Of a DNA stretch of 45,369 bases, positions 8,166 through 22,811 are shown in pieces. Within the stretch, counting starts at the first letter, position 1; each line of letters opens with the position of its first letter. The notes beneath the pieces are model-generated. The model saw nothing but the letters and a program-made list of their open reading frames with translations, had not been told where the DNA came from and made no database searches. Source of the stretch: Frankia sp. R82 (GTDB lineage Bacteria; Actinomycetota; Actinomycetes; Frankiales; Frankiaceae); assembly GCF_023716925.1 (NCBI RefSeq), contig NZ_JAMQQG010000014.1, positions 1 through 45,369 on the forward strand, read 5' to 3'. A program made the position numbers and the translations under genes.

Positions 8166-8702
8166 ATGCCTTCGGTGGAGATCCGCACCTGCGATCAAAG
8201 TGATCTTGAGATCCTTGACCGATACATCCCGACAGGAGGCCAGATGAGCCATCACCGCCGGCGGTTCGAACGGCAGAGTAGGGGCACTGCCGCATACCTC
8301 GTGGCCTGGCTTGCCGGGCGGCCCGTGGGACATCTACTGATCATCTGGGCGGGCTGCGACGTCGACCAGGTGCGCTGGGAGACCGCTGGATGCCCAGAGC
8401 TGAACGCGCTTGGGGTTTGGCCACCGGAGCAGCGCCGGCAGGGGACAGGCCGGGAGCTTCTTCGTCAGGCCGAGATGCTGGTCTCCGCGCACGGCTACCG
8501 AGTGGTCGGGCTTGGCGTGGCCAACGGCAACCTCGAAGCTACCCGCCTCTACCGAAGCCTCGGTTATGTCGCGCGGGTGCAACGTTATGTCGATCGTTGG
8601 ACCTGGGTCGACCATGATGGCGTGGAGCACGAAGAAGCAGAGGAGGCGAGTTTTCTCGTCAAGTACCTCGAGACCGCAAAGAAAAGATCGCCGATTTATT
8701 GA
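8166..8702 (+). CDS. GNAT-family N-acetyltransferase
   Basis: 178 residues, one GNAT fold. VEIRTCDQSDLEIL is the usual first strand and helix. YLVAWLAGRPVGHLLIIWAG is the central hairpin, LNALGVWPPEQRRQGTGREL is strand 4 plus the acetyl-CoA-binding motif A (Q/R-x-x-G-x-G/A, residues about 90-98), and GVANGNLEATRLYRSLGYV is motif B. The substrate cannot be told from sequence. It lies between the NLR-like gene and the 3' end of the DISARM operon and is convergent with drmC. An unrelated cargo gene is possible, though GNATs also occur as toxins or modifiers in such islands. Confidence 0.85.
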   Translation: MPSVEIRTCDQSDLEILDRYIPTGGQMSHHRRRFERQSRGTAAYLVAWLAGRPVGHLLIIWAGCDVDQVRWETAGCPELNALGVWPPEQRRQGTGRELLRQAEMLVSAHGYRVVGLGVANGNLEATRLYRSLGYVARVQRYVDRWTWVDHDGVEHEEAEEASFLVKYLETAKKRSPIY

Positions 8703-8882
8703 ATTTTTCCGGGTAGCCCTTCGGCGGCGTTGCATGACGATAGGTGGTGTGCTGCCAGTCAGACAGTTCTGCGGCGCCCGACGTTCAGGCCGTCAGACGT
8801 TCACAGGAACTGTTCAACGGGTGGCAGTAGTACAACAGCCAAGAGTCGCACGGCGATGTCGGAGCGGGCGGGACCAGGATGC

Positions 8883-9647
8883 TCATTGAGATCGTCGACC
8901 GGTGACCGTGGGCGTGACGTGATCGAAGAGGGTTCCGTGCTGGGCTCGCAGGGTGGACTCGACGGAGGTGGCGAGGGCGGTGTCGTGGACGAGTAGGCCG
9001 AGTTCGATGTTGGTGGTTTCCGCTCGGTAGGAGAAGTTCGCGCTGGTCGTCAGCACGACCGTATGGTCGATGACGATCATTTTCGCGTGACTGACCAGGG
9101 GGCGGGGCGCGCCGGGCAGCGTGGTGGTGGCGAACACCGTGGCGGCCGGAAGGTGGTCGGCGACCTGCTGCGGGGTGCCCGCGACAGCGTCGACGTAGAC
9201 GGTGACCGTCGTCTCGGGGCGCAGCGACGCGGCCCGCAGCGCGTCCCACATTCTGGAGTGCGAGGTGAAGTTGTAGCTGGCGCAGGTCACCGAGATCCGC
9301 GCGCCGTCGATGAGGCGCAGCACCTCGCTGGTCAGCCGGCCGTGTGTGCTCTGGGGGCCGGGCATGGTCCACACCGGGGTGATGCTGGTGCGGATGGAGC
9401 GTGCTCCGGCGATCGCGCGCAGAATCGCGGCAGCGGAAGAGACGTCGTCATGGCCAAGCCCGGCAGCACGCAGTAATCGTCCCGCTTCGGGGCGACGGAT
9501 CCGGGTGATCTCCCGCAGGGCACCGGTCGTACTTTCGCCGGCTTCCAACGCCACGACGAGCCGCTCGGCCTCGTACTCGGTAAGGAACTCCCCAAGCGCC
9601 CGGTGCGGGTCAGCGGTGTCAGAGGCGGCATCGGGATCAGACAGCAT
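8883..9647 (-). CDS. drmC: DISARM DrmC, phospholipase-D-like protein
   Basis: 254 residues from ATG 9647, which overlaps the end of drmB by 11 bases; longer upstream reading would only translate the drmB C-terminus out of frame. The C-terminal PLD-like domain has one HKD motif, SHAKMIVID (H187, K189, D194), followed by TSANFSYRAETTNIELGLL, the usual asparagine/glutamate continuation. The N-terminal 90 residues are helical and of unknown role. One HKD per chain implies a dimeric active site, as in other short PLD proteins. DrmC belongs to the DISARM core set (drmA, drmB, drmC); published work found it dispensable for protection in one class 2 system. Confidence 0.9.
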   Translation of the reverse strand: MLSDPDAASDTADPHRALGEFLTEYEAERLVVALEAGESTTGALREITRIRRPEAGRLLRAAGLGHDDVSSAAAILRAIAGARSIRTSITPVWTMPGPQSTHGRLTSEVLRLIDGARISVTCASYNFTSHSRMWDALRAASLRPETTVTVYVDAVAGTPQQVADHLPAATVFATTTLPGAPRPLVSHAKMIVIDHTVVLTTSANFSYRAETTNIELGLLVHDTALATSVESTLRAQHGTLFDHVTPTVTGRRSQ

Positions 9648-11751
9648 CGGCGGCGCCGAAGAATGCGGGCACGGTGTCGCCGTTGCTGGTGGGCAGACGC
9701 AGCAGGAAGCGGCGGTCGAGGAAGCGGTTGGCCTTCTCGCAGGACGTCTCGGAGGCGAAGCAGCAGCAGTGGCAGGCCGCGCCGTGCAGGAAGTCCTCGG
9801 GATCCCGCGGCACCCGGCCGGCACAGACCGGGTCGGACGAACAGCGGCTGGCCCGGCGCAACGCCGAGACCACCAGGGCCTGCAGGCGCTCCGGCTCGCC
9901 GAGGGCGACCAGGCCGCCGAGGGTGCCCTCGCTGTCGGCGGCGGTGGTGGCGATGAGCAGGCCGGCGGCGGCCGGGCGAGTGTCGGTGGCCGGCCAGGCG
10001 TAGAGACGTTCGCTGAGGCTCGCCGCGCCGTACCCGCAGGCCATCGCCATCTCGCGGATCAGCAGGTGGGCGAGGGTGTGCACGAGCCAGTAGCGGGGAG
10101 CCGGCAGCCTGGTGGCGGGGTCGACGAGCGCGGCGGTGACGGAGAAGCGGCGGGTGAAGTTGCGCTCGTGCGCCTGCCGGTGGGCCGTCCAGATGCTGGT
10201 CTGCAGCACCTGAGCCTCCCAGGCGGTCACGGCGGGCTCGTCGAGCTGCAGGAACACGCCTTCGCCACGGTCCTCGGTGGCCGGTACCCAGGTCGGGGGC
10301 CGGGTGGAAAGCTTGACCAGCCGGCCGCTCACGTCGGCGACCCGGTCGAGCTCGTCGATGCGGGTGAAGCCGATCATGGCGTTGATCTTCTTCATCCGGT
10401 TGACGGCGATGACCCGGCTGATCGGTGCGGGCAGCCGCTCGCCGGTGGCCTGCTCGGTGACCATGAGTCCGCTGGCGTTCTCCTGACGCGCGAACAGGCT
10501 GGGCTTCTGCAGGTACTCCCATTCGGGGACGAGCAGGTCCACCGGGTCCCAGGTGCGCAGTCGCTCCTCACGCTCCTGTTCGTCGGGGGGTGGGGCGAGC
10601 GCCTGGACGGCGGCGGCGAGCAGGTCCTCGTCGCTGACACCGGTCAGGTCGGTGCGGCGGTCGAGCATGGTGCGCATGATGCCCGGGAGTGTCGCGACCG
10701 CCGTGATCTCTTCAGCTGAGCAGGCCGCCCGCAGGGTGTCGGCGAGGACGGTGCGCTGTTCGCTGGTGGTGCGCGGCATGACGATGACGGACTGGGTGGC
10801 GGAGAACCACAGGTTCGACGCGCCCATCATGATCAGCTTCGTCTGGTTCTCGCAGCCACGGTCGAAGGCGTTCAGGTGCGGGTGGCGGCCCCGACAGGTG
10901 GGGAGTTTGCGCTGCCCGGAGTCGCCGCGGGCCTCGCCCATGCTGCGGGTCGTCTGGCAGGCCTCGCAGCGCACGATGGCGCTCGCGCCCTGCCCGATGT
11001 TGGTGTCGATGAGCTTGAGCTGCGGTGCCTCGGCTCCCCTGGGGCAGTCGTTCCCCCGGTGGACCCACAGCGCATAGGGGAACTCGTCCAGATGCCCGTC
11101 GGGGCAGGCCAGCAGATAGCGGGCGGGCACCGCCGGGCTGCGCCGCTGCCGTTTCTTTGGCGCTTTGCCCTTCCCGCCCGGGCTGGGCTGGTCGTCCGTC
11201 TGCCGGCGCCGGCCGGGACAGCCGACATGTTCGAAGCAGGCGAGGTCTGGGCGGAAGGGATGGGTGTTGGTGTATTCGAACCGGGCGAGTGGTCCGAGGA
11301 AGTCGCAGCCGGTGCAGCGCATCCACTGCGGAAAGACCCGTGCCGGAATGCCGAGGTCGCTGCCGTCGGCGGAGCGGGCGTGCGGCACCGGCTGCCAGGG
11401 GAACGGGCGCAGCTGGCTGACCTTCGGTAGCAGGATCCGGATGGCGTCCAGCAGCCGCGGCTCGTCGATCTGGGGGACGAACTGGCGGCGGCGCCAGATC
11501 GGTTCCCAGTCGTCCAGGCCCGCCGGCATGATGGAGAACTGCGGCAGATCCATGACCGATCCGATGCCGAAGGTGTACAGCAGCGCGGACGGGCGGGCCG
11601 AGCCGACCTTGGCCCTGTTCTTCACCTGGGCGTCCTCGGCGTCACCGAGCGGGTCCAGTGGAAAGGTCGAGGCGAGCAGCATCGTCGGCACGTCCACCGG
11701 TGCTGCCGCGTTTCCTCCCGCGGGGGGCGCGTTGGGATCGAGTGCGGTCAT
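9637..11751 (-). CDS. drmB: DISARM DrmB, DUF1998 protein
   Basis: 704 residues. The N-terminal part holds RPSALLYTFGIGSVMDLPQF, typical of the DrmB N-terminus. Several cysteine pairs look like zinc ligands: MRCTGCDFLG, YLLACPDGHLDEFP and RCEACQTTRSM. The C-terminal DUF1998 region includes LVHTLAHLLIREMAMACGYG and ends in a cysteine-rich cluster (CSSDPVC, ACHCCCFASETSCEKANRFL). DrmB is thought to work with the DrmA helicase in a complex that acts on incoming unmodified phage DNA. Start ATG 11751 is one base from the drmA stop, and the end overlaps drmC, so translation is probably coupled. Confidence 0.93.
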   Translation of the reverse strand: MTALDPNAPPAGGNAAAPVDVPTMLLASTFPLDPLGDAEDAQVKNRAKVGSARPSALLYTFGIGSVMDLPQFSIMPAGLDDWEPIWRRRQFVPQIDEPRLLDAIRILLPKVSQLRPFPWQPVPHARSADGSDLGIPARVFPQWMRCTGCDFLGPLARFEYTNTHPFRPDLACFEHVGCPGRRRQTDDQPSPGGKGKAPKKRQRRSPAVPARYLLACPDGHLDEFPYALWVHRGNDCPRGAEAPQLKLIDTNIGQGASAIVRCEACQTTRSMGEARGDSGQRKLPTCRGRHPHLNAFDRGCENQTKLIMMGASNLWFSATQSVIVMPRTTSEQRTVLADTLRAACSAEEITAVATLPGIMRTMLDRRTDLTGVSDEDLLAAAVQALAPPPDEQEREERLRTWDPVDLLVPEWEYLQKPSLFARQENASGLMVTEQATGERLPAPISRVIAVNRMKKINAMIGFTRIDELDRVADVSGRLVKLSTRPPTWVPATEDRGEGVFLQLDEPAVTAWEAQVLQTSIWTAHRQAHERNFTRRFSVTAALVDPATRLPAPRYWLVHTLAHLLIREMAMACGYGAASLSERLYAWPATDTRPAAAGLLIATTAADSEGTLGGLVALGEPERLQALVVSALRRASRCSSDPVCAGRVPRDPEDFLHGAACHCCCFASETSCEKANRFLDRRFLLRLPTSNGDTVPAFFGAADAV

Positions 11752-11752
11752 C

Positions 11753-14700
11753 TCAGTCCTCCTGCGCCGGCAGCTGCCAGGTGGGGGCGTCCGGCGGGTC
11801 GACGACGGCCAGGCGCTGGGGTAGCGGGGACACGAGCAGATTGATCTCCGGCTGCACCTCGCGCATCGAGTTGGCGACGACGAACGGCGGCCGGGGCAGG
11901 CCAGGCGGGTGGGCCCGGCTGTTCTCCGGGCTGATCATCAGGGCGCTCAGCGCCTTCGAGTCGCCGACATGCTCATAGACGAGGGTCTGTCCGGCGCCCA
12001 CGGCGTGCTGGCGCCGCGCGCTCCACTGGTCCAGCCGGTTGACGAAGCGCTGTCTGACCTGCTCGGCGACGCTGTCGCTCTGCGCCGCGGCGAGGATGCG
12101 GGCGCGCAGCCGGGCCACCAGCGCGTCGAGTGCGTCCCGTTCCTGCTCGACGCGCCATGCCTCCCGCTCCGGCGACAGGCCCTGCACACCCAGATGGCCC
12201 TGCATCACCCGGGCGGCGGCAACAAGCACGCCGTCGAGGCCGCGCTCCAGAGCCGTGGGTGAGAACGGGGTGACAGATAGCGCCTCGACCTGCGCGTAGA
12301 ACGTCTCGTGGTAGTAGCGGAACTGCTCGTAATGAGCAAGGTCGCGAGGGCGGGCCCAGTTGCCGAGCGCGACAACCAGACCGGGTCGCCGCTGCGGGTC
12401 GCGCCCAACTCGGGAAGATGCCTGGATGTACTCGGCGGTGTTCTTCGGCTGGCCGACAACAAGCATCAGGCCGAGACGTTGGACGTCGACACCGACCTGC
12501 AACATCGAGGTGGCGAGCACGACGTCGAGGGGGCTCGCGGGTGGCCGCGGAGTGGGATGTCCGGCAGCCTCCGCCGCGATCCGGGCCTGTAGGGCCGCCG
12601 ACGTGTAGTAGCCCGGGTCGAACTCGAGGGCCAGTGCGTCCAGGGTGCGGCCGATATCGGCGGACGCGATTCTGGCGGTGAGCTCACCGGTGTTCAGGTA
12701 ACCGAAGGAACCGTAGCGGCGCGGGAAGCCGGAACCACGCTTGGGGCTGCGCACCCGGGTCTGGACGTCGTCGCCGATGTAACGGGACATGCCGGCGAGT
12801 TCGCGGGTGGCGTTGAAATAGCCGACGAGGGTCATGTACGGGTCGGCGGCGGCTCCGCTGCGGTCGAACAGCAGCTGCCCGGCGGACAGCAGCACCTCGG
12901 CGACCCGGATCTCCGCACTGGACAGGCGAACGCCCTGCGCGCTGACGCCGATGTAACGCCGGCCGGGATTGTCCGGACTGATCGGGACCTCTTCGGAGAA
13001 GAAGGTGTCGGCGACGTCCAGAACCTGCGGGGGGAACATCTGCACGCGCCGGCCGTAGAGCGCGCGCACCTGTTCCTCGGCGTTGCGGACGGTGGCCGTG
13101 GACGCAACGATCATGGGCTGGACGGGTCGGCTGGCCGCGTCCCGCCAGCTGCAGAGCGTCTCGACCGCGGCCTCGAACAGGCCGACCGTGGTGCCCAGCG
13201 CCCCGGTGATCAGGTGCAGCTCGTCCTGGATGATCAGATCCGGCGGGCGCAGCCGCGCCACCGGCCGCACGCCGGCCGCTGGGAGGCCCTTCTCGGCCCG
13301 ATGGCTGGTCTTGATCGAGCATCCGGCGTAGTCGGGGTGCGCGTAGCCGTGCCGGCCGCAGCGACCCGAGACGTAACCGAACAGCGAGGCCGCTTCGCCC
13401 TCACGGGCGAGGCGGGCGAACTTGTCCACCGTCGCGATGACGAAGGCGGGGGTGAGCCGGTAGATCTCCTCGTCGACGGTGAGGACCGGCAGGCCCTCGT
13501 CGACGCCGCCGCCGCGGGAGAACGGGCAGCGGCCCAGGTCGTCCCCGCAGTAGACGAACACCCGGCGGGTGGCGGCATCCGCCCGGACCTGCGCCGGAGT
13601 GATCGGAGTACCGCACCAGGGGCAGCGCTGGATCTGTAGGACGGTCAGCCGGTAGCCGCTGCCGTACTCGTTGGCCTTGCGAAGCTGTTCGTTGGCTTCG
13701 TTCCAGCGTTTCGGGCTGACGTCCGTGCCGACCCACAGGCCGATCCGGAACGGCTCGCGGCCCCAGCGTGTTTCGTCTGCCCGGCGAGCCAGTTCGGCCG
13801 CGCAGATCATCGCGGTGGCCCGCTGGAACTGCTGGGAGGTGAGCAGCCGCAGCGTGTACCGCATGAGGACGCTGACACCGTCGCGCCCGTCGAGCGGCCC
13901 GTCCGCGGTCTGCAGCACACCCTGCCTGCGGCGGATCGCAAGTGTGTAGGCGGCAAGCCCCAGGTAGGCCTCGGTCTTGCCACCACCGGTCGGGAAGAAC
14001 AGCAGCTCCACCCCGGCCATGCCACCACTGCGCGCCGGCGAAGCTGGGTCGGTCAGGCCGGGCAGCTGCAGCAGGATGAAGGCGAGCTGGAACGGGAACC
14101 AGGACGCCGCCGCCGGCCCACGCGCCCGCACCCGCTCGGTGGCCTCCGCCAGGGACAGCCCAGCGGTGGAGCTGCGCAACGCCGCGACCTGCGACTGCAG
14201 CCGCTGGTCGCGCATGACGGCGTTCATGAAGTGGAAGCACTCCAGCGCCTGCGGCTCGATGACCAGGTGCTCAAGCCCTGCCGCGAGCCGGGCATGAATT
14301 CTCCGCGCCTCGTGCACAGCCTCGTCGGCGTCGGTGCGCAGATGTTCGGGCAGCGTCGCGGCTTCGGCGGCACGCGCGTCGAGCCAGCTGCCGTAGCCCT
14401 CGACCAGCGGACGAAGCCCCTGGCGCAGCTCGTCTGCGGTGGCGTGCGCCAAGGCGTCCATGGACAGCAGGGCGTCGGCCACCGAGCCGGCTCTGGTCTG
14501 CGGGGTTTCCGCAGTTGGCAGCCAGGTCGTCCAGACGGCGCTTGCCCGGCGCCTGCGCGGCTCGGCCGCCCAGTCGGCCGAACAGGTGCGGCCGATGGCG
14601 AACTCCAACCGGTGCCGGTATTGCAGGTCGAGGCGACGGACCTCCTCGTCGTCCTCGGCGCGGTCCTGCTCGAGGACGTCACGGACCGGTAGGAACACCG

Positions 14701-15469
14701 CCTCGCCCCCGGCGGCCACGTGCAGCCGGGTCTGGAACATCCACTCGGCGACCGGGATCGTCGGCGGGGTCACCTTGTCATTGCACAGGGCAATCTCCAC
14801 CAGCCGGCGACCGAAGCGCTCGTCCTCGTAGAGGTCGATACGCAGACACACCTTCTGGCTGAGCACCCGGGTGTGAGTGCGGCCCGGGGTGAGCTCGGCA
14901 AGCCGGACGGGCTCGACGATCTCCACCGGAGTGCGCCGGTAGGCCCGCAGCGGCCGGCCCTTGCGGTCTACCTCCTCGGTGGCGACGCCTTCGTAGGTGC
15001 CCCACGACGCGGTCACCGTGACCTCGGCCAGATCGGCCGGCACCTGAAAACGCAGACCCATCGACGCGGGGATCATCAGCCCCTGCTGGGGTGCCCTGTC
15101 CTCGTTACCGTCGCCATCGCCGTCCCCGCTGTCGGGTCCGCCGTCTTCTACAGACATCGCGGGGATGCCCTGCTGCGTGGTCGGCCCCGACAGGTCATCG
15201 CGGGCAACGGCCAGCGCCTCACCATCCTCAACCGCGGCCTCATCGATCCGGTTCTCCGCGAGCTTCACCGGCGCGATGTGCCCCACCAGGTACATCTGCC
15301 GCGGGCTGATCGACAGCAGCTCCTCGGGCCCACCTGCGGGCCCCAACAACTCCCGCTCCAGGATGTCGACAAGGTTCTCCCGAACCGTCACCGACGACCC
15401 GTCCGGCTGGTGCGCCAGCCGGTACTCCGGCGCCAAGCGCGCCCCCGACGGCGGCGCCGAACCCACCAT
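11753..15469 (-). CDS. drmA: DISARM DrmA, superfamily 2 helicase
   Basis: 1238 residues. About 470 N-terminal residues precede the helicase core, as usual for DrmA. Walker A is FFPTGGGKTEAYLGLAAY (core at 493-500), and motif II is DLIIQDELHL (DELH at 749-752). Between them a zinc-ribbon-like segment has CPWC and further cysteines (616-648). The helicase C domain includes VLATSMLQVGVDVQRLGLML and ASSRVGRDPQRRPGLV (motif VI arginines). The ATG is fused to the drmMI stop (TGATG overlap). With DrmB it forms the DISARM core that recognises and blocks foreign DNA; the methylase protects the host. Confidence 0.95.
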   Translation of the reverse strand: MVGSAPPSGARLAPEYRLAHQPDGSSVTVRENLVDILERELLGPAGGPEELLSISPRQMYLVGHIAPVKLAENRIDEAAVEDGEALAVARDDLSGPTTQQGIPAMSVEDGGPDSGDGDGDGNEDRAPQQGLMIPASMGLRFQVPADLAEVTVTASWGTYEGVATEEVDRKGRPLRAYRRTPVEIVEPVRLAELTPGRTHTRVLSQKVCLRIDLYEDERFGRRLVEIALCNDKVTPPTIPVAEWMFQTRLHVAAGGEAVFLPVRDVLEQDRAEDDEEVRRLDLQYRHRLEFAIGRTCSADWAAEPRRRRASAVWTTWLPTAETPQTRAGSVADALLSMDALAHATADELRQGLRPLVEGYGSWLDARAAEAATLPEHLRTDADEAVHEARRIHARLAAGLEHLVIEPQALECFHFMNAVMRDQRLQSQVAALRSSTAGLSLAEATERVRARGPAAASWFPFQLAFILLQLPGLTDPASPARSGGMAGVELLFFPTGGGKTEAYLGLAAYTLAIRRRQGVLQTADGPLDGRDGVSVLMRYTLRLLTSQQFQRATAMICAAELARRADETRWGREPFRIGLWVGTDVSPKRWNEANEQLRKANEYGSGYRLTVLQIQRCPWCGTPITPAQVRADAATRRVFVYCGDDLGRCPFSRGGGVDEGLPVLTVDEEIYRLTPAFVIATVDKFARLAREGEAASLFGYVSGRCGRHGYAHPDYAGCSIKTSHRAEKGLPAAGVRPVARLRPPDLIIQDELHLITGALGTTVGLFEAAVETLCSWRDAASRPVQPMIVASTATVRNAEEQVRALYGRRVQMFPPQVLDVADTFFSEEVPISPDNPGRRYIGVSAQGVRLSSAEIRVAEVLLSAGQLLFDRSGAAADPYMTLVGYFNATRELAGMSRYIGDDVQTRVRSPKRGSGFPRRYGSFGYLNTGELTARIASADIGRTLDALALEFDPGYYTSAALQARIAAEAAGHPTPRPPASPLDVVLATSMLQVGVDVQRLGLMLVVGQPKNTAEYIQASSRVGRDPQRRPGLVVALGNWARPRDLAHYEQFRYYHETFYAQVEALSVTPFSPTALERGLDGVLVAAARVMQGHLGVQGLSPEREAWRVEQERDALDALVARLRARILAAAQSDSVAEQVRQRFVNRLDQWSARRQHAVGAGQTLVYEHVGDSKALSALMISPENSRAHPPGLPRPPFVVANSMREVQPEINLLVSPLPQRLAVVDPPDAPTWQLPAQED

Positions 15470-18400
15470 CAGAACAACCCCCCCTGGTCGTGCTGCCCCT
15501 CCACCTCGGCCGCCGCCTTCTGCCGACCACGCCCTTTCCTACCGGCGGGCACCGACAGCTTCTCTTCCTCCTTTGCCCGCCTTAGGTTTTCCTCCAGCAG
15601 CCGATCCATCAGCTCCACCCGTGCCGCCGGACTGATCGTCCACCGCCGCACCTGCCGATACGTGTGAAACCCATGCCCCAACTCGACGTCCGACCACCCA
15701 TACGCCGCCACCACAGCCTCATCCACTTGCGCATGCAAAGCCCGCACCAGATCAACATCCTGGTCACCTACAACACTACTATCGTTAACCAGATTATAAA
15801 GTTTAGTTAGCCCAAGACTTCTACGCTCCATTATCTCCCGACGCCCCATCTCCAGATTTTCGCCCAACTCCCACATAACACCTGTAAAGCCCGGAAGAGG
15901 GAAAGTCTCGAAAACATTTGATGGCGTGTAGCGAGGATCACTTCGCATACCGAGACCATATTTGACTACCCATGCCTGATGGAGCCCCGACGACAAAGAA
16001 GCCAGCAAAGCATACGAATCGCTGGCAAATACAATTACCGTCTGGTCGAGGACTTGACGCGATGAAACTCGAGTCGGAGCCAGCGTACTACTAGTTTGTG
16101 CGATCACAATGACCTCATCTAGGCCGGCCATTGCATGGCGCATCCCAGGTCGCTTCTCTGCAAATTGCCACCAATAATCTCGATACATTTTTCGATTATT
16201 TTTTGCACGCACAGTCTTGACTTTTTCGGTTACCCATTGAAAAATTTCCGGGTAACGCCTAGCGCAGCTATCACACCGATCACCAAAGTCTACTATCCAT
16301 CTCCCCGCCACCCGGTCCGGATGAGAATTTAGATTACCTCCAGTAAGGTAGGGAAAAATAACGTCTCTATTCGCAGGATTCGCATGCATCCATACAGAAG
16401 CTTCCCGCTCAGTCAGCGTAAAGTTACCCAATGGAATACATCCCTGGAAGGCGATGTTCGAATTCTCGATAAGCCTAACCGGACTCCCATCGACACGCCC
16501 GACCCCCTCAAGAAGGGTGGAGATGTACCGAACCTTCGCGCCATCAATCACTCGATCAACTCCTTTTTCAGGAGCGAATCGACAGCCCCAGACAGCCGCG
16601 TATTCCAAATTTGCACTTGCGGCAGGCCAAGCAGCACTCTGAATCCCTCGAGTGATCGTAAAACCCATCTCGACGATCCGATCAAGACCGACTTCGCGAC
16701 TTACCCCCTGAGCAATGGAGTTAGTGGCGATCAATCCAAGTACCCCAGAGGAATTCAAGAGATCGAATGCTCGCAGGAGGAAGTAAGCGACCAGATCGGC
16801 ACTTCCACGGCACCCCGACGCAAGCCAGTGGACAATCCAGTCACGCACATCGGCGCCAATTGAACTGGTAAGTTTCTGCCCACCCAAGAAAGGCGGATTT
16901 CCGATTACAGCGTCAAATCCGCCACGGTCGACCATGACGTCGGGAACCTCAAGTGCCCAGTGGAGCGGCTTCCAACGGCGGTAGTCGGTACGAACGGTCG
17001 GGGTGAGTCCCTTGGATGTAATGGCATCGAGCAGCGTCGGGTCAGGTTTTTTGCCAGGACCGGGAAATGCATCGGCGGTAGCTGCCCAGAGATTCCCGTA
17101 GGCCTCGTCGAGCTGGCGGCCGGGTTTGCCGCCGAGCCAGAGGCCGGCGGCGATGATGCCGTCAGCGACGGCGGTCTGCTGGCGGGTGACCTCGTGTAGC
17201 CGGGCCAGCTGGCGCTGTTTGGCGTTGGCGTTGCGCTGGGGGTCGTCCTCCTGGACCTCGCTGGCCAGGCGGCGACGGATCTCGATCGCCTGCTGGATGA
17301 CGTCGTCCAGCGGCTCGTCGCCGAACCGGGCCTGCTGTGGGCGGGTCGGGTCGATGTGCAGGGCCTTGAGCTGGCGGATGTCGGTGAGGCCGAGCAGCGA
17401 GTTGCCGTGCAGGATTTTGTCGTCGACGAAAGAGAACGGCAGGTCCCGGTCGAGGGACACCAGCCACAGCGAGAGTTTGCACATCTCGACAGCCATGCCG
17501 TTGATGTCCGCGCCGTACAGGCAGTTCGCGACTACCGCGCGAATGGCCCGGATACGCAAGTCGGTGCGACCACGCAGGGTCGGGTCCTGCCGAACCTGTG
17601 CCTCGACCACCCGGTCGGCGAGGTAGCGGGCGGCGGCAACCAGAAAGGCACCGGAGCCGGCAGCGATATCGGCGACCTTCAGCGACAGCAGCTCGTCCGA
17701 GGTCTTCAGCTTCCATGCGGTCTCGTCCGGCGTCTGATACGGACCCGGTGCGTAACACAGCGGCTGGAGGGCGTGGAAGACGACTTCTTCAGCAAGGTTG
17801 CGAGGGGTGTAGTGGGCGCCGGCATTGCGCCGTGACGGGGTTTCGGTGACCGCCATGCCGCCGCGCAGGATGACGGTGGGCCGACCCCGCAGGTCCCGCC
17901 GCACGATCGGCATCCAGCGCAGCAGCCGGACGCGCAGTCCGGCGCTGTCGGTGGTCGCGCGCAGGTGACGTTCCGCGGCGTCCTGACCATCGTCCTTCGC
18001 CAGGGCCCGGGTGAGTGCCGAGGCGCTGGGGGCCTTCGCAGCCGGCTGATGGGTCTTCACCCAGGCGAGGATCGCCGAGACCAGGGCGGCATCGGTCTCG
18101 TGCTGGCGGGAAAGGTCCTCCAGCACTTCCAGCGGGATTTCTGGTTCGGCGCCGGGAGCACCTGTGAGGCCCAGCAGGGCGATGTCGGTGACGACCGTGC
18201 AGGTGTAGCCGAGCAGGCCCTCGTAGATGTAGCCGATCTGCTCGACGTCGATGTCGCGAAAGGAGATCCGGCGGGCATCGGAACCACTGAGGTTGGCGAT
18301 CTGCACCGAGCGCAGCACATGGAGCATGACCCGGTCCGGAATCGGCATGGCGAGCGAGCCACGCTCGCCAACGGCACGCAGGAACGGGAAACGGTCCTGG

Positions 18401-19647
18401 CCGAACAGAGATCCGCCGTAGGCGGGGATGCGCACGTCCTCGAAGGACGCGCCGCGCGACAGTGCCCGGGCGGTGGCGAGCAGCCGGTGCCAGGTGAGGA
18501 AGGTGGCGTCGAGGGCTTCCTCCCCGTCGTCGAGGGCACGGCGTTCCAGCGCGTCGAGCTCACCGCTGATGCCGTAGCCGGCGGTGAACAGGTGGCTCTG
18601 CGGGAGCAGGCCGCGTTCCTCGGCGAACAGCAGGAACACCACCTGCATCATGACCGTGACGCAGGCCTCGTAGACGGTGTGCCCGTTGGCGGGCAGCGGG
18701 GCGACGCGACCGTGGCGGCGCGCGTCGGACTGCGCCTCGGAGAACGCGGCGACGAGCAGTTCCACCGCCTGGCGAACCTGGGAGCCGAGCGCCTCGGTGA
18801 CCTCCTCCGCCGCGGCGACGGATTCGGCGAACAGCACCGGAAGCCGCTCGTTCGCGGCACCACCGACGAGATGTCGGCGGTGGATCAGGGTGAGGAACGC
18901 GTCGCGGGTGCGGGTCTCCTCGGCCCAGGCGAAGGCGTCCACGATGCCGGAGGCGACCATGACGCCGGGCTGGGCGCAGACCAGCGCCCACCAGCGGCCG
19001 TCGGTGACGATGCCGATCGACACACCGCCCTCGTGCAGCATGTGTGCCATCCGGTCGAGCGGGCCCGCGGCCCAGCCGTCCGTGCCACCGGCCCGCAGGT
19101 CCTCAGTTGCCGGGATGACGCTGACCAGGGCGCCGAGCCCATCCGGTCCGGTCAGCGCGGCGGTGGGAGTCACCTGGATCTGCCGGTTCGGGGACTGCGC
19201 CGTGGCCTGCGGCGCGACCGCGGCGCCCCAGGTGAGCATGTCCTGCCAGCCGGCAACGTCGGCGAGGACCGTGCGGACCCACGTGATCTGGGCCTCCCCG
19301 AACGCGGTCCGGGTGGATTCGCTGTCCGGGTCGTCGGCGCGGTCCAGCGTCTCCCAGGCCCGTTCAAAGGTGGCGCGGGCGGCGTTGAGCGTGTCGCGGG
19401 TGTCCTGGTCGAGCGCGGGGACGCCCTGCGGCCACAGCCGCTTCAGCGGTGGGACGGCGAGGAACGGGCCGTCGGTGTCGACGAGATCCAGCCACGACCG
19501 ATGCAGCTCCGCGGCACTGGGCTCGCGGCGCCGGGCTGACGCCGTCCCGGCTCCGCGAGAAACGCCGGCCGGGCGAATGTTGTTGGCCGGGCGGGTGCTG
19601 GCCAGACGGGAGCGGATGGCGCGACCGGACGCGCGGGGGGCGCTCAC
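15469..19647 (-). CDS. drmMI: DISARM DrmMI, N6-adenine DNA methylase (class 1)
   Basis: 1392 residues from GTG 19647, which forms a GTGA overlap with the drmD stop. The frame stays open far upstream, but that stretch lies inside drmD and is low-complexity shadow. The N-terminal 600 residues resemble type IIG / BREX PglX-like methylases. Motif I is VADIAAGSGAFLVAAARYL (D660) and motif IV is IGNPPFLGG (N917-P-P-F920), giving the gamma-like N6-adenine methylase order. The region after motif IV should include target recognition; it ends with the familiar DPRYTPSNVFETFPLP segment. Bases about 15760-16915 are AT-rich with codons such as AGA, CTA, AAA and TAT, unlike both flanks, so this part was probably exchanged. 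A class 1 DISARM has drmMI plus drmD, as here. Confidence 0.93.
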   Translation of the reverse strand: MSAPRASGRAIRSRLASTRPANNIRPAGVSRGAGTASARRREPSAAELHRSWLDLVDTDGPFLAVPPLKRLWPQGVPALDQDTRDTLNAARATFERAWETLDRADDPDSESTRTAFGEAQITWVRTVLADVAGWQDMLTWGAAVAPQATAQSPNRQIQVTPTAALTGPDGLGALVSVIPATEDLRAGGTDGWAAGPLDRMAHMLHEGGVSIGIVTDGRWWALVCAQPGVMVASGIVDAFAWAEETRTRDAFLTLIHRRHLVGGAANERLPVLFAESVAAAEEVTEALGSQVRQAVELLVAAFSEAQSDARRHGRVAPLPANGHTVYEACVTVMMQVVFLLFAEERGLLPQSHLFTAGYGISGELDALERRALDDGEEALDATFLTWHRLLATARALSRGASFEDVRIPAYGGSLFGQDRFPFLRAVGERGSLAMPIPDRVMLHVLRSVQIANLSGSDARRISFRDIDVEQIGYIYEGLLGYTCTVVTDIALLGLTGAPGAEPEIPLEVLEDLSRQHETDAALVSAILAWVKTHQPAAKAPSASALTRALAKDDGQDAAERHLRATTDSAGLRVRLLRWMPIVRRDLRGRPTVILRGGMAVTETPSRRNAGAHYTPRNLAEEVVFHALQPLCYAPGPYQTPDETAWKLKTSDELLSLKVADIAAGSGAFLVAAARYLADRVVEAQVRQDPTLRGRTDLRIRAIRAVVANCLYGADINGMAVEMCKLSLWLVSLDRDLPFSFVDDKILHGNSLLGLTDIRQLKALHIDPTRPQQARFGDEPLDDVIQQAIEIRRRLASEVQEDDPQRNANAKQRQLARLHEVTRQQTAVADGIIAAGLWLGGKPGRQLDEAYGNLWAATADAFPGPGKKPDPTLLDAITSKGLTPTVRTDYRRWKPLHWALEVPDVMVDRGGFDAVIGNPPFLGGQKLTSSIGADVRDWIVHWLASGCRGSADLVAYFLLRAFDLLNSSGVLGLIATNSIAQGVSREVGLDRIVEMGFTITRGIQSAAWPAASANLEYAAVWGCRFAPEKGVDRVIDGAKVRYISTLLEGVGRVDGSPVRLIENSNIAFQGCIPLGNFTLTEREASVWMHANPANRDVIFPYLTGGNLNSHPDRVAGRWIVDFGDRCDSCARRYPEIFQWVTEKVKTVRAKNNRKMYRDYWWQFAEKRPGMRHAMAGLDEVIVIAQTSSTLAPTRVSSRQVLDQTVIVFASDSYALLASLSSGLHQAWVVKYGLGMRSDPRYTPSNVFETFPLPGFTGVMWELGENLEMGRREIMERRSLGLTKLYNLVNDSSVVGDQDVDLVRALHAQVDEAVVAAYGWSDVELGHGFHTYRQVRRWTISPAARVELMDRLLEENLRRAKEEEKLSVPAGRKGRGRQKAAAEVEGQHDQGGLF
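15760..16915 (-). other. AT-rich foreign-looking block inside drmMI
   Basis: Codons about 911-1296 of drmMI use many A/T-ending codons. For example, the stretch RRSLGLTKLYNLVNDSSV reads CGT AGA AGT CTT GGG CTA and onward. Flanking drmMI sequence is very GC-rich. The right-hand boundary falls at the catalytic NPPF motif (16888-16899), and the left one is about 95 codons before the stop. The reading frame is intact throughout. The block covers the expected target-recognition part of the methylase. Confidence 0.75.
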
Positions 19648-22600
19648 CAGGAACCGGCCTGGGCGGCGTCGGCCTCGGTCAGGGCGAACACGACGGCGGC
19701 CGCACTGATGTGTGGTTTGACCTCTTCGTAGCGTTGGCTGATCGTCGCCACTTCGCGGGTCTCCTCTCCGGCGAGCGATTCCAGGCGTTCCCGCATCGCC
19801 TGGATGTCGCGGCGGCGCTGGCGTTGCTGGTCGTCGGGGAACAGGGCCAGCTCCGCCTCCATCTCCGCGGTCGTCAGCTGTTCCAGCGACTCGGTGAGGT
19901 TGCGGGCGAAGGCCTTGTAGATTCCCTGGACCCGCCGGATGTCGGACTCCTCGCGGCGAGCCAGCTGGTCGCTGACCCGCCGGTGGTAGGCGTCGGCCCG
20001 GGTGGTCATCGACTCCAGCAGTCGGGTGCGCAGCGGTGAGTCCGGCGCGTTCCAGGTGTCGGTCAGCGCGGTGCGGATCTCCGCGTCGGCGAGACGCAGG
20101 TCGGTGGCGTCCAAGGCCTGGTCGAGGTGTCGCTCGGCGCGTTCCTCGGCCATCGCCCGTCGTCCACGCAGCCGGACGCCGGCGAGGAAGACCTCCTCGT
20201 GCAGGCGCAGCCCGCCCCGCCCGACCAGCACCATGCGGGTCACCGCGGCCACGAACGACTCGGGCAGGTCGGGGACGACGACGGCGCTGACCCGGTTCAG
20301 CGGCGCGTCCGCGCTCCACAGTGAGCGGCGCAGCAGCCGTTGCGCCCGCGTCACCAGCGGATGGCCCAGATGCACGTGGACGAGATGGTGCAGGGCGCCA
20401 GCCTCCTCGTCGAAGGTGATCGGTCGCAGCTGACCGGGGGTGAGCACGGTGTCGAGGCCGGTCAGCGCCGGCTGCCAGGCGGGGCTCAGCTGTGGGACGG
20501 TGAACACGGCGGCGTCGGTGTCCTGGTCACCGGTTTCCACCAGCGGCGGCTGGTGGTCGATGCGCAGGGCGGTGTCGACGACCCGGCGCAGGTTCTCCGG
20601 GGTCAGGTGCAGCCGGGCACGTTCCTCGCCATATCCGCGTTCCAGTGCTGTGAGCTGGGCGTTTAGGTCCATGCCGCCCTTGAGCGCCCGGTTGATGACG
20701 GCGTTGCCGTCGACGGGATCGCGCCGACGGCGCGCGGGCGCCCGACCGGTGAAATGCTCCTGGATCTCGGTACTGATCAGCTGGTTGACCGAACCCAGAT
20801 CGGATGCGATCGTCGCGACCTTCCGCGCGATCATCCCCATGAATGCCAGGTCCGCACCGTAGGTCTCGGACGAGGCCGGAGGCGCGAAGTAGAAGATCTC
20901 CGGCCGCCGCGTCTGCCCCCAGCGGTCGATCCGGCCGATCCGCTGCTCCAGACGCGACGGGTTGAACGGCACATCCAGGTTCACCAGCCGGTGGCAGTAC
21001 CACTGCAGGTCGATACCTTCACCGGCCGCGTCGGTGGCAAGCAGAACCCGCACCTTTTCCTGCGCCGGATCGGCGGTGAACCGGGCCCGGATGACCTCGC
21101 GTTCCTCCGGTGGCGTCGAACCCTGGATGACCGCGAGGACGTCCGCATAGCCGAACTGGCTCAGCACCCGGTGCGCCCAGTCGATGGTGTCGGCGTATTC
21201 GGAGAACACCACCACCCGCTCGTTGGACCATGTCCCGGCGGGCCGGCAGATCGCGTCCAGCTCGACCATCAGCGCGTCCAGGCGCGCGTCCGGGCGGCTC
21301 TCGTATCCCCGGCCCCAGGCCGCGAGCTGCTCCAGCTCGCCCGGTCGGGCGGCGACCAGTGGGTCAGTGGACTTACTGGCCCGGATGTGGCTGGCCTCCT
21401 GCTGCTCCCACAGACCCTCCTCCTCGTCGGCCTGCCCCTCGCCGAGAATGTCGTCGTAGTCGGGGTCGGCCAGGCCCTGGCCGGTGACCTGGGCGGCCAG
21501 ATACTGCTCCAGGGTGGTGGTGAACGCCCAGGGGCTGGACAGAAAGCGCTTCTTGAACAGCATCGTGGTGATGTCGCCGGACGGTCCACGTCCGTTCGCC
21601 CGGGCGCTGTCGTGCAGGATGCGTGCCAGCAGGGCGAACATCTCCTGCTCACCGGGGTCGGGCTGCACCGGCAGGGCCCGGAACTGCCGGCGCTGGAAGT
21701 CCTTGTGGGGCAGGTCGCTCTTCAGCCGGCGCACCGTGACATCACGCAGGGCCGACTCGTCGAGCTGCGCGCCGCGAGAGAACCGCCTGGAATCGATCAT
21801 CTCCATCAGGGCGGTGAAGGACTCCGGATGCCCGTTGTGCGGGGTCGCGGACAGGAACAGCCGGTGTTCGCACCGGTTCGCGAGGCCCCGCACCGCCTCC
21901 GTGCGCTGGGTGTCGACCGCGTAGCCGCGTCCACCGCCGACCACCGACGGGCTCGCCGGCGCGACGTGATGCGCCTCGTCCACCACGAGGATGTCGAACG
22001 CGAACCGTTTCGCGCTGTTGATCTGCGTGGTCTGGCCGTAGACGTCGCGCAGCATCCGCTGCGCCCGCACCCCGGGCAGCCAGGCCAGACTCACGATCAC
22101 CCGGGGGAACAGCAGGAACGGGTTGGCGTGCAGCCCATAGGCCCGGCGGACGTCCCGCAGCCGCTCGCTGTTGATGATGGTGAAGTCAAGGCCGAACTTG
22201 TCCCGCATCTCGTCCTGCCATTTGAGCGCCAGGCTCGGCGGGCAGACCACGATCGCGGTGCGGGCCCGGTGGCGCAGCAGCAGTTCCTGGATGACGAGGC
22301 CCGCCTCGACCGTCTTACCGAGGCCGACATCGTCTGCGAGCAGCAGGTTGGTCCGGGCTGAGGACAGTGCCCGGCGCAGCGGTTCCAGCTGGTAGGCCTC
22401 CACGGAGACGCCGCTGCGAAACGGTGCCTGAAAGCTCCGGTCGTCGGCGGAGGTCACCGCGCCCCAGCGCATCGCGTCCACGAAGCCGGCGAGCAGGTTC
22501 GGGTCGTCGAAGCCGTCGGCGTTCAGCGATGTCGGCAGGCCCTGGTCCGGGGTGATCGTGTGGCCGACCTCGAGCTCCCAGACAACGGTGAGCTCCTCGC

Positions 22601-22811
22601 CGAGCCGGTCCTCGTCCAGCGCCTGCAACGTGACCACGTGGTTCAACCCGGCCACCTCCTCGTCGCCGGGGCTGCGTGGCAGACCCTGCTCGGCGACCAG
22701 AGCCACCGCCCAGGTCGAGCCGCGGACCTCCACGACCTGCCCCTGCTCTGGAACGGCCGGCGCCGCTCCCCCGGTGACAGCGTCGGGGCGCAGGCTCGCG
22801 GAAACGGTCAT
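19644..22811 (-). CDS. drmD: DISARM DrmD, SNF2-type helicase
   Basis: 1055 residues. A SNF2/HepA-like translocase with Walker A LLLADDVGLGKTVEAGLVIQ (161-168 core), IVVCPPSLALKWQDEM (motif Ia), DILVVDEAHHVAP (DEAH 278-281), LFLSATPHNGH (motif III) and the C-terminal LLATDAAGEGIDLQ, NPSRLEQRIGRIDRWGQ motifs. The last 300 residues are helical. drmD marks class 1 DISARM and leads the operon here. The ATG at 22811 has no Shine-Dalgarno run. A TAAAGT hexamer seven bases upstream suggests a leaderless message, and a palindrome covers that hexamer. Its last codons overlap drmMI by GTGA. Confidence 0.93.
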   Translation of the reverse strand: MTVSASLRPDAVTGGAAPAVPEQGQVVEVRGSTWAVALVAEQGLPRSPGDEEVAGLNHVVTLQALDEDRLGEELTVVWELEVGHTITPDQGLPTSLNADGFDDPNLLAGFVDAMRWGAVTSADDRSFQAPFRSGVSVEAYQLEPLRRALSSARTNLLLADDVGLGKTVEAGLVIQELLLRHRARTAIVVCPPSLALKWQDEMRDKFGLDFTIINSERLRDVRRAYGLHANPFLLFPRVIVSLAWLPGVRAQRMLRDVYGQTTQINSAKRFAFDILVVDEAHHVAPASPSVVGGGRGYAVDTQRTEAVRGLANRCEHRLFLSATPHNGHPESFTALMEMIDSRRFSRGAQLDESALRDVTVRRLKSDLPHKDFQRRQFRALPVQPDPGEQEMFALLARILHDSARANGRGPSGDITTMLFKKRFLSSPWAFTTTLEQYLAAQVTGQGLADPDYDDILGEGQADEEEGLWEQQEASHIRASKSTDPLVAARPGELEQLAAWGRGYESRPDARLDALMVELDAICRPAGTWSNERVVVFSEYADTIDWAHRVLSQFGYADVLAVIQGSTPPEEREVIRARFTADPAQEKVRVLLATDAAGEGIDLQWYCHRLVNLDVPFNPSRLEQRIGRIDRWGQTRRPEIFYFAPPASSETYGADLAFMGMIARKVATIASDLGSVNQLISTEIQEHFTGRAPARRRRDPVDGNAVINRALKGGMDLNAQLTALERGYGEERARLHLTPENLRRVVDTALRIDHQPPLVETGDQDTDAAVFTVPQLSPAWQPALTGLDTVLTPGQLRPITFDEEAGALHHLVHVHLGHPLVTRAQRLLRRSLWSADAPLNRVSAVVVPDLPESFVAAVTRMVLVGRGGLRLHEEVFLAGVRLRGRRAMAEERAERHLDQALDATDLRLADAEIRTALTDTWNAPDSPLRTRLLESMTTRADAYHRRVSDQLARREESDIRRVQGIYKAFARNLTESLEQLTTAEMEAELALFPDDQQRQRRRDIQAMRERLESLAGEETREVATISQRYEEVKPHISAAAVVFALTEADAAQAGSW

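Follow-up and report, generated by a model that had tools for sequence, protein, structure and literature searches.

Does the AT-rich stretch within the DNA methylase gene of this locus mark a specificity region that was exchanged, or is it an old property of the gene? The window analysed here (the whole stretch of 45,369 nucleotides, from Frankia sp. R82) belongs to a 6.9 Mb draft genome in 370 contigs that is about 95% complete. Its minus strand carries a complete class 1 DISARM operon in the order drmD-drmMI-drmA-drmB-drmC (Table 1). Class 1 DISARM is defined by drmD, a SNF2 helicase, beside the adenine methylase drmMI; in the window drmD adjoins drmMI, and the core genes drmA and drmB are present together with drmC. 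The drmMI start codon is a GTG that overlaps the drmD stop codon, and residues are counted from this GTG as residue 1, which places the NPPF motif at 917-920. Our answer, given with good confidence, is that the AT-rich block is a specificity module of DrmMI, the adenine methylase of DISARM, that is exchanged as a unit in the family and, in a minority of loci, probably forms part of a flip switch.

Table 1. Features of the window and, in the last six lines, inverted cassettes directly after drmMI in relatives
Feature	Position	Strand	Basis or remark
drmC, phospholipase D-like protein	8883..9824	-	PADLOC DrmC 1.7e-86; PLDc_2
drmB, MZB/DUF1998-type protein	9637..11751	-	PADLOC DrmB 4.5e-61; Pfam MZB
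drmA, helicase	11753..15469	-	PADLOC DrmA 1.2e-300
drmMI, N6-adenine DNA methyltransferase	15469..19647	-	PADLOC DrmMI E=0; Pfam Eco57I, MmeI_Mtase, MmeI_TRD
drmD, SNF2-like helicase	19644..22811	-	PADLOC DrmD E=0
AT-rich tract of drmMI, residues 852-1311	15715..17094	-	GC3 change-point fit, permutation, composition
Specificity module, exchangeable, with bounds taken from relatives (residues 921 to about 1304)	15736..16887	-	Median breakpoints, 105 close pairs; MmeI alignment
MmeI_TRD (PF20466) match, target recognition domain	15892..16428	-	Pfam
Catalytic motif IV NPPF codons, residues 917-920	16888..16899	-	Left joint of exchanged module in relatives
L010 Cellulosimicrobium cellulans, inverted cassette	10676-17321		Large serine recombinase (Pfam)
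L012 Propionibacteriaceae MAG, inverted cassette	8333-14695		Large serine recombinase (Pfam)
L016 Streptomyces tuirus, inverted cassette	10676-16495		Tyrosine recombinase (Pfam)
L019 Streptomyces sp. LBL, inverted cassette	10676-16495		Tyrosine recombinase (Pfam)
L118/L150, genome of L019's genus, inverted cassette	L150 2860-9157		Tyrosine recombinase by similarity
L123/L151, genome of L019's genus, inverted cassette	L151 5136-11258		Tyrosine recombinase by similarity

The initial annotation had described an AT-rich block of about 1.15 kb (15760-16915) with an unbroken frame and a breakpoint at NPPF. The drop in GC is real and the frame is open; the tract is longer, about 1.38 kb, and the earlier block proved short at both ends, the C-side edge lying some 15 codons further on. 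A two-change-point fit of GC3 places the edges at codon 852 (849-859 within 2 lnL) and codon 1311 (1307-1317), and the N-side step in the window gene falls about 65 codons upstream of NPPF rather than at the motif. GC3 is 0.487 in the tract vs 0.873 in the rest of drmMI. The trough is well beyond the permutation range, with a lowest 380-codon mean of 0.468 against a lowest value of 0.661 among 2000 codon permutations. Overall GC is 52.1% in the tract and 71.2% elsewhere in the window; among 1,380-bp segments sampled every 60 bp, the one of lowest GC starts at 15721. With the genome in 370 contigs, one might suspect an error of assembly or sequencing, or a gene in decay, but the reading frame is open throughout the tract, the motifs are present and the same anatomy occurs in 93 genes from many assemblies, which leaves this explanation with a negligible chance of being right.

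TTA codons are absent from the tract (15715-17094) and from the remainder of drmMI, which may hint at host selection against TTA.

DrmMI is an MmeI-like gamma-class N6-adenine methylase with a fused target recognition domain (TRD), as seen in its NPPF motif IV, its MmeI_Mtase and MmeI_TRD matches and its MmeI fold. True MmeI additionally has a PD-(D/E)XK nuclease at its N-terminus. An AlphaFold model of residues 560-1392 has a mean pLDDT of 80.6 and a pTM of 0.64, with the block mostly at 77-97 per ten residues. The best solved match of this model is MmeI (5hr4; VIA Z 25.2, rmsd 3.1, 422 aligned), followed by CamA (Z 15.6); Foldseek gives the MmeI match a value of 6.7e-21, though the whole-model TM-score is just 0.42-0.48. 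The earlier proposal that the block covers the recognition region is borne out by this fold and by the MmeI_TRD match inside the block. NPPF 917-920 aligns with MmeI 481-484 and residue 1251 with MmeI 822, and the end of the recognition domain aligns with about DrmMI residue 1254. In MmeI, motif IV is reported at 481-484, residues 487-489, at the third to fifth positions past this motif, contact the DNA minor groove and the TRD spans 621-825 (PMC4833311). Because the minor-groove contacts come just after NPPF and the TRD ends near 1254, a module cut here would carry the base contacts. The module as bounded in relatives comprises the end of the methylase domain together with the TRD.

One reading of the low GC is that this strain recently acquired the block from a lower-GC donor. 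A genome scan gave 55 loci, of which 52 are DrmMI and 47 full length; the rows dropped are the truncated genes L024, L032, L038, L042 and L048 and the remote cyanobacterial hits L055-L057. GC3 is lower in residues 917-1300 than in residues 40-850 in all 48 drmMI genes, the window's included (median difference -0.18), and the window trough is the deepest of this set (z -3.7). A larger set adds genes from the same genus, the same family, the Streptomyces group (33 matches, leading to loci from 29 new places) and plasmids (14 genes, taken among 40 listed matches of 238 plasmid records). It omits L054 and L037 (NPP[FYW] not found), the duplicate L126, L146 (no NPPx) and the fragments L137 and L138, and the paralogous loci L147, L149 and L152 stand outside all counts. 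GC3 of the 340 codons after NPPx is lower than before NPPx in 93/93 distinct DrmMI or DrmMI-like genes of this set, among which the window trough ranks fifth deepest. For the 13 plasmid genes counted (1 of the 14 is without NPPx), the difference is -0.05 to -0.31, and the plasmid hosts are actinobacteria, cyanobacteria, proteobacteria and Deinococcus. All homologues measured have an AT-biased module. Since the drop is family-wide, low GC by itself neither dates nor sources an exchange, and we rejected it as a stand-alone argument for recent low-GC import.

Within the same operons, the median GC3 troughs are -0.03 to -0.05 in drmD (n=51), drmA (47) and drmB (48), against -0.18 in drmMI (n=49) and -0.38 in the window drmMI; the drmMI trough is deeper than that of drmD in 48/48 pairs and than that of drmA in 47/47. 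Along the gene, GC3 per 25-residue bin tracks close-pair identity (Spearman 0.77, or 0.82 after controlling for deep conservation) but barely tracks deep conservation (rho 0.20), with p-values that are optimistic because adjacent bins are not independent. An exception is residues 765-790, where close pairs vary yet GC3 stays at 0.85, and two deeply variable stretches that lie outside the block, residues 90-115 and 515-565, retain high GC3.

These patterns bear on whether the AT-richness was carried in by donors or was selected or forced at the DNA level, as a xenogeneic silencer target or an internal promoter, through relaxed translational selection or through mutational bias where turnover is fast. 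In the 10 lower-GC genes, block GC3 follows core GC3 (slope 0.87 +- 0.21) and is lower still, which a donor-averaged pool would not yield: from core to block, GC3 goes from 0.51 to 0.30 in Oscillatoria, from 0.54 to 0.27 in Pseudanabaena and from 0.73 to 0.42 in Methylocystis, with smaller falls in Trichormus (0.41 to 0.34) and Sulfitobacter (0.53 to 0.48). Among the 83 genes that are GC-rich, however, block GC3 is independent of core GC3 (slope -0.02 +- 0.16), as imported modules predict, and the variable stretches 90-115, 515-565 and 765-790 keep their high GC3. We hold the DNA-level cause as a tentative possibility, weaker than its opposite. Such a bias could conceivably, with a similarly restrained degree of belief, explain the origin of the AT bias; it would not replace exchange.

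Other N6-adenine methylase genes of the genus show a GC3 trough in 4/9 cases, beginning exactly at NPPW in L096, L097 and L098 and some 155 codons further on in L091; L092-L095 and L099 have no clear trough. L098 (G000:C99) lies in the window's own genome and is a type IIG-like gene with a SNF2-type helicase before it. Low GC3 from NPPx onward may be a marker of such modules in other N6-adenine methylase genes.

Exchange itself is best seen in close relatives. Among the 13 genomes examined from the window's genus, 10 contain a match to the DrmMI model if weakly matching other methylases are counted, and six, the window's included, have full-length DrmMI (seven genes). Four same-genus genes (L065, L067, L068 and L069) share 92-95% identity over residues 40-850 but 48-57% within the block, the pattern of high identity outside and low identity inside that had been anticipated for an exchange. 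Codon-aligned nucleotide identity of L065 and L067 is 0.88-1.0 over residues 800-919, 0.42 from 920 and 0.85-1.0 from 1256. Identity drops at residue 920 in 5/6 same-genus pairs, to 0.28-0.50, and recovers at about 1256-1280; in the L065/L068 pair the step comes later, around 932-956, and pairs involving L068 are less similar even ahead of the step (0.67-0.94).

The same anatomy emerges across the family when close pairs are compared, a close pair having a core identity of at least 0.88 among genes with the NPPx motif. The 112 close pairs, which are not mutually independent, have different modules in 105 cases and share one in 7 (one a duplicate genome). The fitted left breakpoint has a median at residue 918 (IQR 907-922; 78/105 within 900-929) and the right breakpoint at residue 1304 (IQR 1284-1316); the left break falls at 760-859 in 16/105 close pairs, 10 of these at the lower bound of the fit. 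A breakpoint at NPPF is thus found at the level of the family, and the same-genus genes agree with it. Grouped into 12 core clusters, 46 genes carry 40 modules at a cut-off of 80% block identity, which implies at least 28 module changes, one of them (L016/L019) an inversion; the block differs among members in 11 of the 12. Together, these comparisons show that the block is replaced as a unit within the family: genes almost alike ahead of NPPF and, in several groups, also past about residue 1304 have unrelated DNA in the interval.

A recognition domain that just evolves fast in place, by diversifying selection or local hypermutation and without recombination, would fit a block tree that keeps several subfamilies together on long branches. 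Silent positions speak against it. In the four genus genes and one same-family gene, identity at fourfold-degenerate sites before, in and after the block is 0.81, 0.29 and 0.83. In 7/8 groups it falls from 0.65-0.92 before the block to 0.22-0.37 inside, near the 0.19-0.30 found in the block of five far pairs, and after the block it is back to 0.73-0.83 in 4/8 groups and less in the others. The drop at fourfold sites excludes amino-acid selection as its cause. AU tests on block data also reject three core clades (p 3.5e-6, 0.0015 and 0.0047), for groups picked after the trees were seen. We consider in-place evolution very improbable. Many subfamilies remain clustered in the block tree, so most exchange is among related modules.

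How far does this account for the window gene? The proposal that its recognition module was swapped while the catalytic core was kept stands for the family; for the window, identity to the best core relative is about 62-64%, and no closer one than about 64% was found in the genus, family and order (35 genomes) or in the other collections searched. The best relative of the block is 58% identical, and core and block have their nearest relatives in much the same lineages; our search identified no donor of the window block, and these nearest relatives give no sign of a foreign one. With no close relative and a GC step 65 codons upstream of NPPF, we infer the window's own exchange from the family, from the right GC edge at 1311 that matches the family breakpoint and from the deep trough. 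To explain its left edge, at 852, either a crossover farther upstream than the usual joint or two events would be required. The window module is among the more AT-rich ones and sits on a host-like core.

An old low-GC tract is the other possible history for the window: a block inherited vertically, with an AT-richness ancestral to DrmMI modules and no exchange in this lineage. The low GC3 of 93/93 homologues from several phyla agrees with it, as do the drmMI trough being deepest in the operon in 48/48 and 47/47 pairs and a block that is not unusually diverged for its core (mean residual +0.028). Set against this are the variation of the block within 11/12 core clusters, the rank of the window trough (lowest of 48, z -3.7, and fifth of 93) and the coincidence of its right edge with the family right breakpoint. 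The initial annotation had named, as the sign of such a tract, close homologues that all share the block with equal divergence throughout; low GC is indeed shared by 93/93 homologues, but divergence is not equal throughout. We regard vertical inheritance of an old tract as rather unlikely, and exchange as the preferred history.

Replacement of the module would proceed through homologous recombination, with the conserved DNA encoding the catalytic motif as a putative left anchor and the conserved GLTKLYNLV/C-terminal helix region as a putative right anchor; anchoring of TRD recombination in conserved DNA is an idea reported for Type III TRDs (PMC3983042). A cut at NPPF would move the base contacts with the module and leave the SAM-binding half in place, and the predicted outcome is a changed methylation motif marking self DNA for DISARM. 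The adenine methylase of the Serratia DISARM is reported to target ACACmAG (PMC9142583); a new module should change the self-mark. It is plausible that, as the initial annotation had suggested, a new methylation motif redirects what DISARM treats as self. The same source reports that DrmAB is less active on 5-methylcytosine DNA and that the Serratia system also restricts phages without target sites (PMC9142583).

In some relatives a second specificity module lies next to the first. In 6/94 loci with at least 900 bp visible downstream (L116, with 564 bp downstream, and L126 being left out), drmMI is immediately followed by a second, inverted copy of the specificity region, with recombinases of two types (Table 1). 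Perfect inverted repeats at these loci reach 334 bp. The serine recombinases of L010 and L012 are 71% identical, and the tyrosine recombinases of the other four loci are 62-94% identical. The first approximately 100 residues of the L010 recombinase frame match TRDs; we took this part as a frame antisense to the TRD and set the match aside. An inverted silent copy beside a recombinase suggests that the methylase can probably flip between two specificities, which would then hold for 6/94 loci. The active C-terminus of L016 is 86% identical to the silent copy of L019, and the active one of L019 is 90% identical to the silent copy of L016, against 64% between the two active C-termini; such a reciprocal match is what an inversion of the segment after the divergence of the two would be expected to leave. 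A search of the window and of its roughly 95% complete draft genome found no second specificity copy.

Movement of the tyrosine-type unit from one DrmMI backbone to another, at the same joint, seems to have occurred. Identity of L118 and L123 with L016 and L019 is only about 41% in the core, compared with 65-69% in the block. Long nucleotide similarity begins 7-8 codons ahead of NPPF, upstream of which there are only shorter separate matches, and among the tyrosine-type loci it recurs through the repeats into the recombinase. We lean, by a small degree, towards a wider reading in which the DISARM self-mark is a standard cartridge with a fixed NPPF joint that would circulate among DrmMI genes, also as a portable two-specificity switch, with a serine or tyrosine recombinase, entering different backbones and making self phase-variable.

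Several candidates were rejected along the way. On the Nocardioides plasmid pNOCA01, drmMI and drmA are separated by three genes in reverse orientation that resembled an inverted cassette and are not one; these genes (L059, 13071-15623), of which one has a YfbU domain and another weakly resembles AbiJ_NTD4, were added inside the DISARM operon. In Streptomyces sp. JJ66 (L048, the same as L148/L149), a contig break at NPPF looked like a switch; drmMI is instead interrupted by inserted DNA just before NPPF, and no inverted copy was found in the stretches of JJ66 examined. Phage-borne relatives were dropped as a lead, there being only two distant records (31% and 39% identity).

Both the movement of TRDs and the inversion of specificity genes have precedents (PMC3983042, PMC3077401, PMC7394358, PMC5903667). 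In Helicobacter pylori, TRDs are reported to move in Type III Mod and Type I HsdS (PMC3983042, PMC3077401), and DrmMI is like them in that recognition-domain DNA moves between genes; unlike Mod and HsdS, it is a gamma-class single-chain methylase of DISARM, and its module includes the end of the methylase domain. DrmMI shares its fold (VIA Z 25.2) and its Pfam TRD with the MmeI/Type IIL family, whose TRD structures are described as amenable to specificity change (PMC4833311). It differs from MmeI in accompanying DrmD, DrmA, DrmB and DrmC, and whereas specificity change in MmeI is treated per residue in that account (PMC4833311), in DrmMI whole modules are replaced at motif IV. The switch resembles inverting Type I hsdS, in which a silent second specificity copy is reported to be exchangeable with the active one by recombination (PMC7394358); it is distinguished by its DISARM setting, by two unrelated recombinase types and by a unit that diverged backbones have in common. 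Another variable defence methylase is pglX, for which phase variation is described (PMC11341690).

Within DISARM, the Serratia class 1 DrmMI is of the same methylase type, and the accessible passages of its account do not mention module exchange or inversion (PMC9142583). In Cutibacterium acnes, drmMI is reported to be split by a genomic island (PMC7365801). DISARM inversion likewise goes unmentioned in the accessible parts of PMC12458937, PMC12707154, PMC12839542 and PMC7365801, and neither inversion nor module exchange in DISARM was found in the open-access literature as far as titles, abstract openings and passages go, with subscription papers and most preprints outside this scope. The apparently new elements are module exchange and inversion in DISARM, a joint fixed at motif IV, the AT bias of the module and the portable switch.

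How a BREX or DISARM system changes its methylation motif without harm to its own host is an open question. The natural cut site described here is resolved to a few codons in several lineages, and in the MmeI structure the base contacts fall to one side of it. Natural chimeras, in which one core is combined with many modules, offer material for testing the DrmMI motif against what DISARM spares, and the prediction follows that some Streptomyces and relatives switch DISARM specificity through DNA inversion.

Two further arrangements were seen among the loci collected. In L085-L088, from four genomes of the window's genus (G001, G003, G005 and G010), drmD and drmMI occur with no drmA or drmB match in the 17-19 kb examined, and the L085 pair adjoins MkoA/MkoB-like genes; the drmD-drmMI pair is possibly a reduced DISARM-like system. 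In L147 (G160:C85), two oppositely oriented DrmMI genes lie on one contig about 3.7 kb apart.
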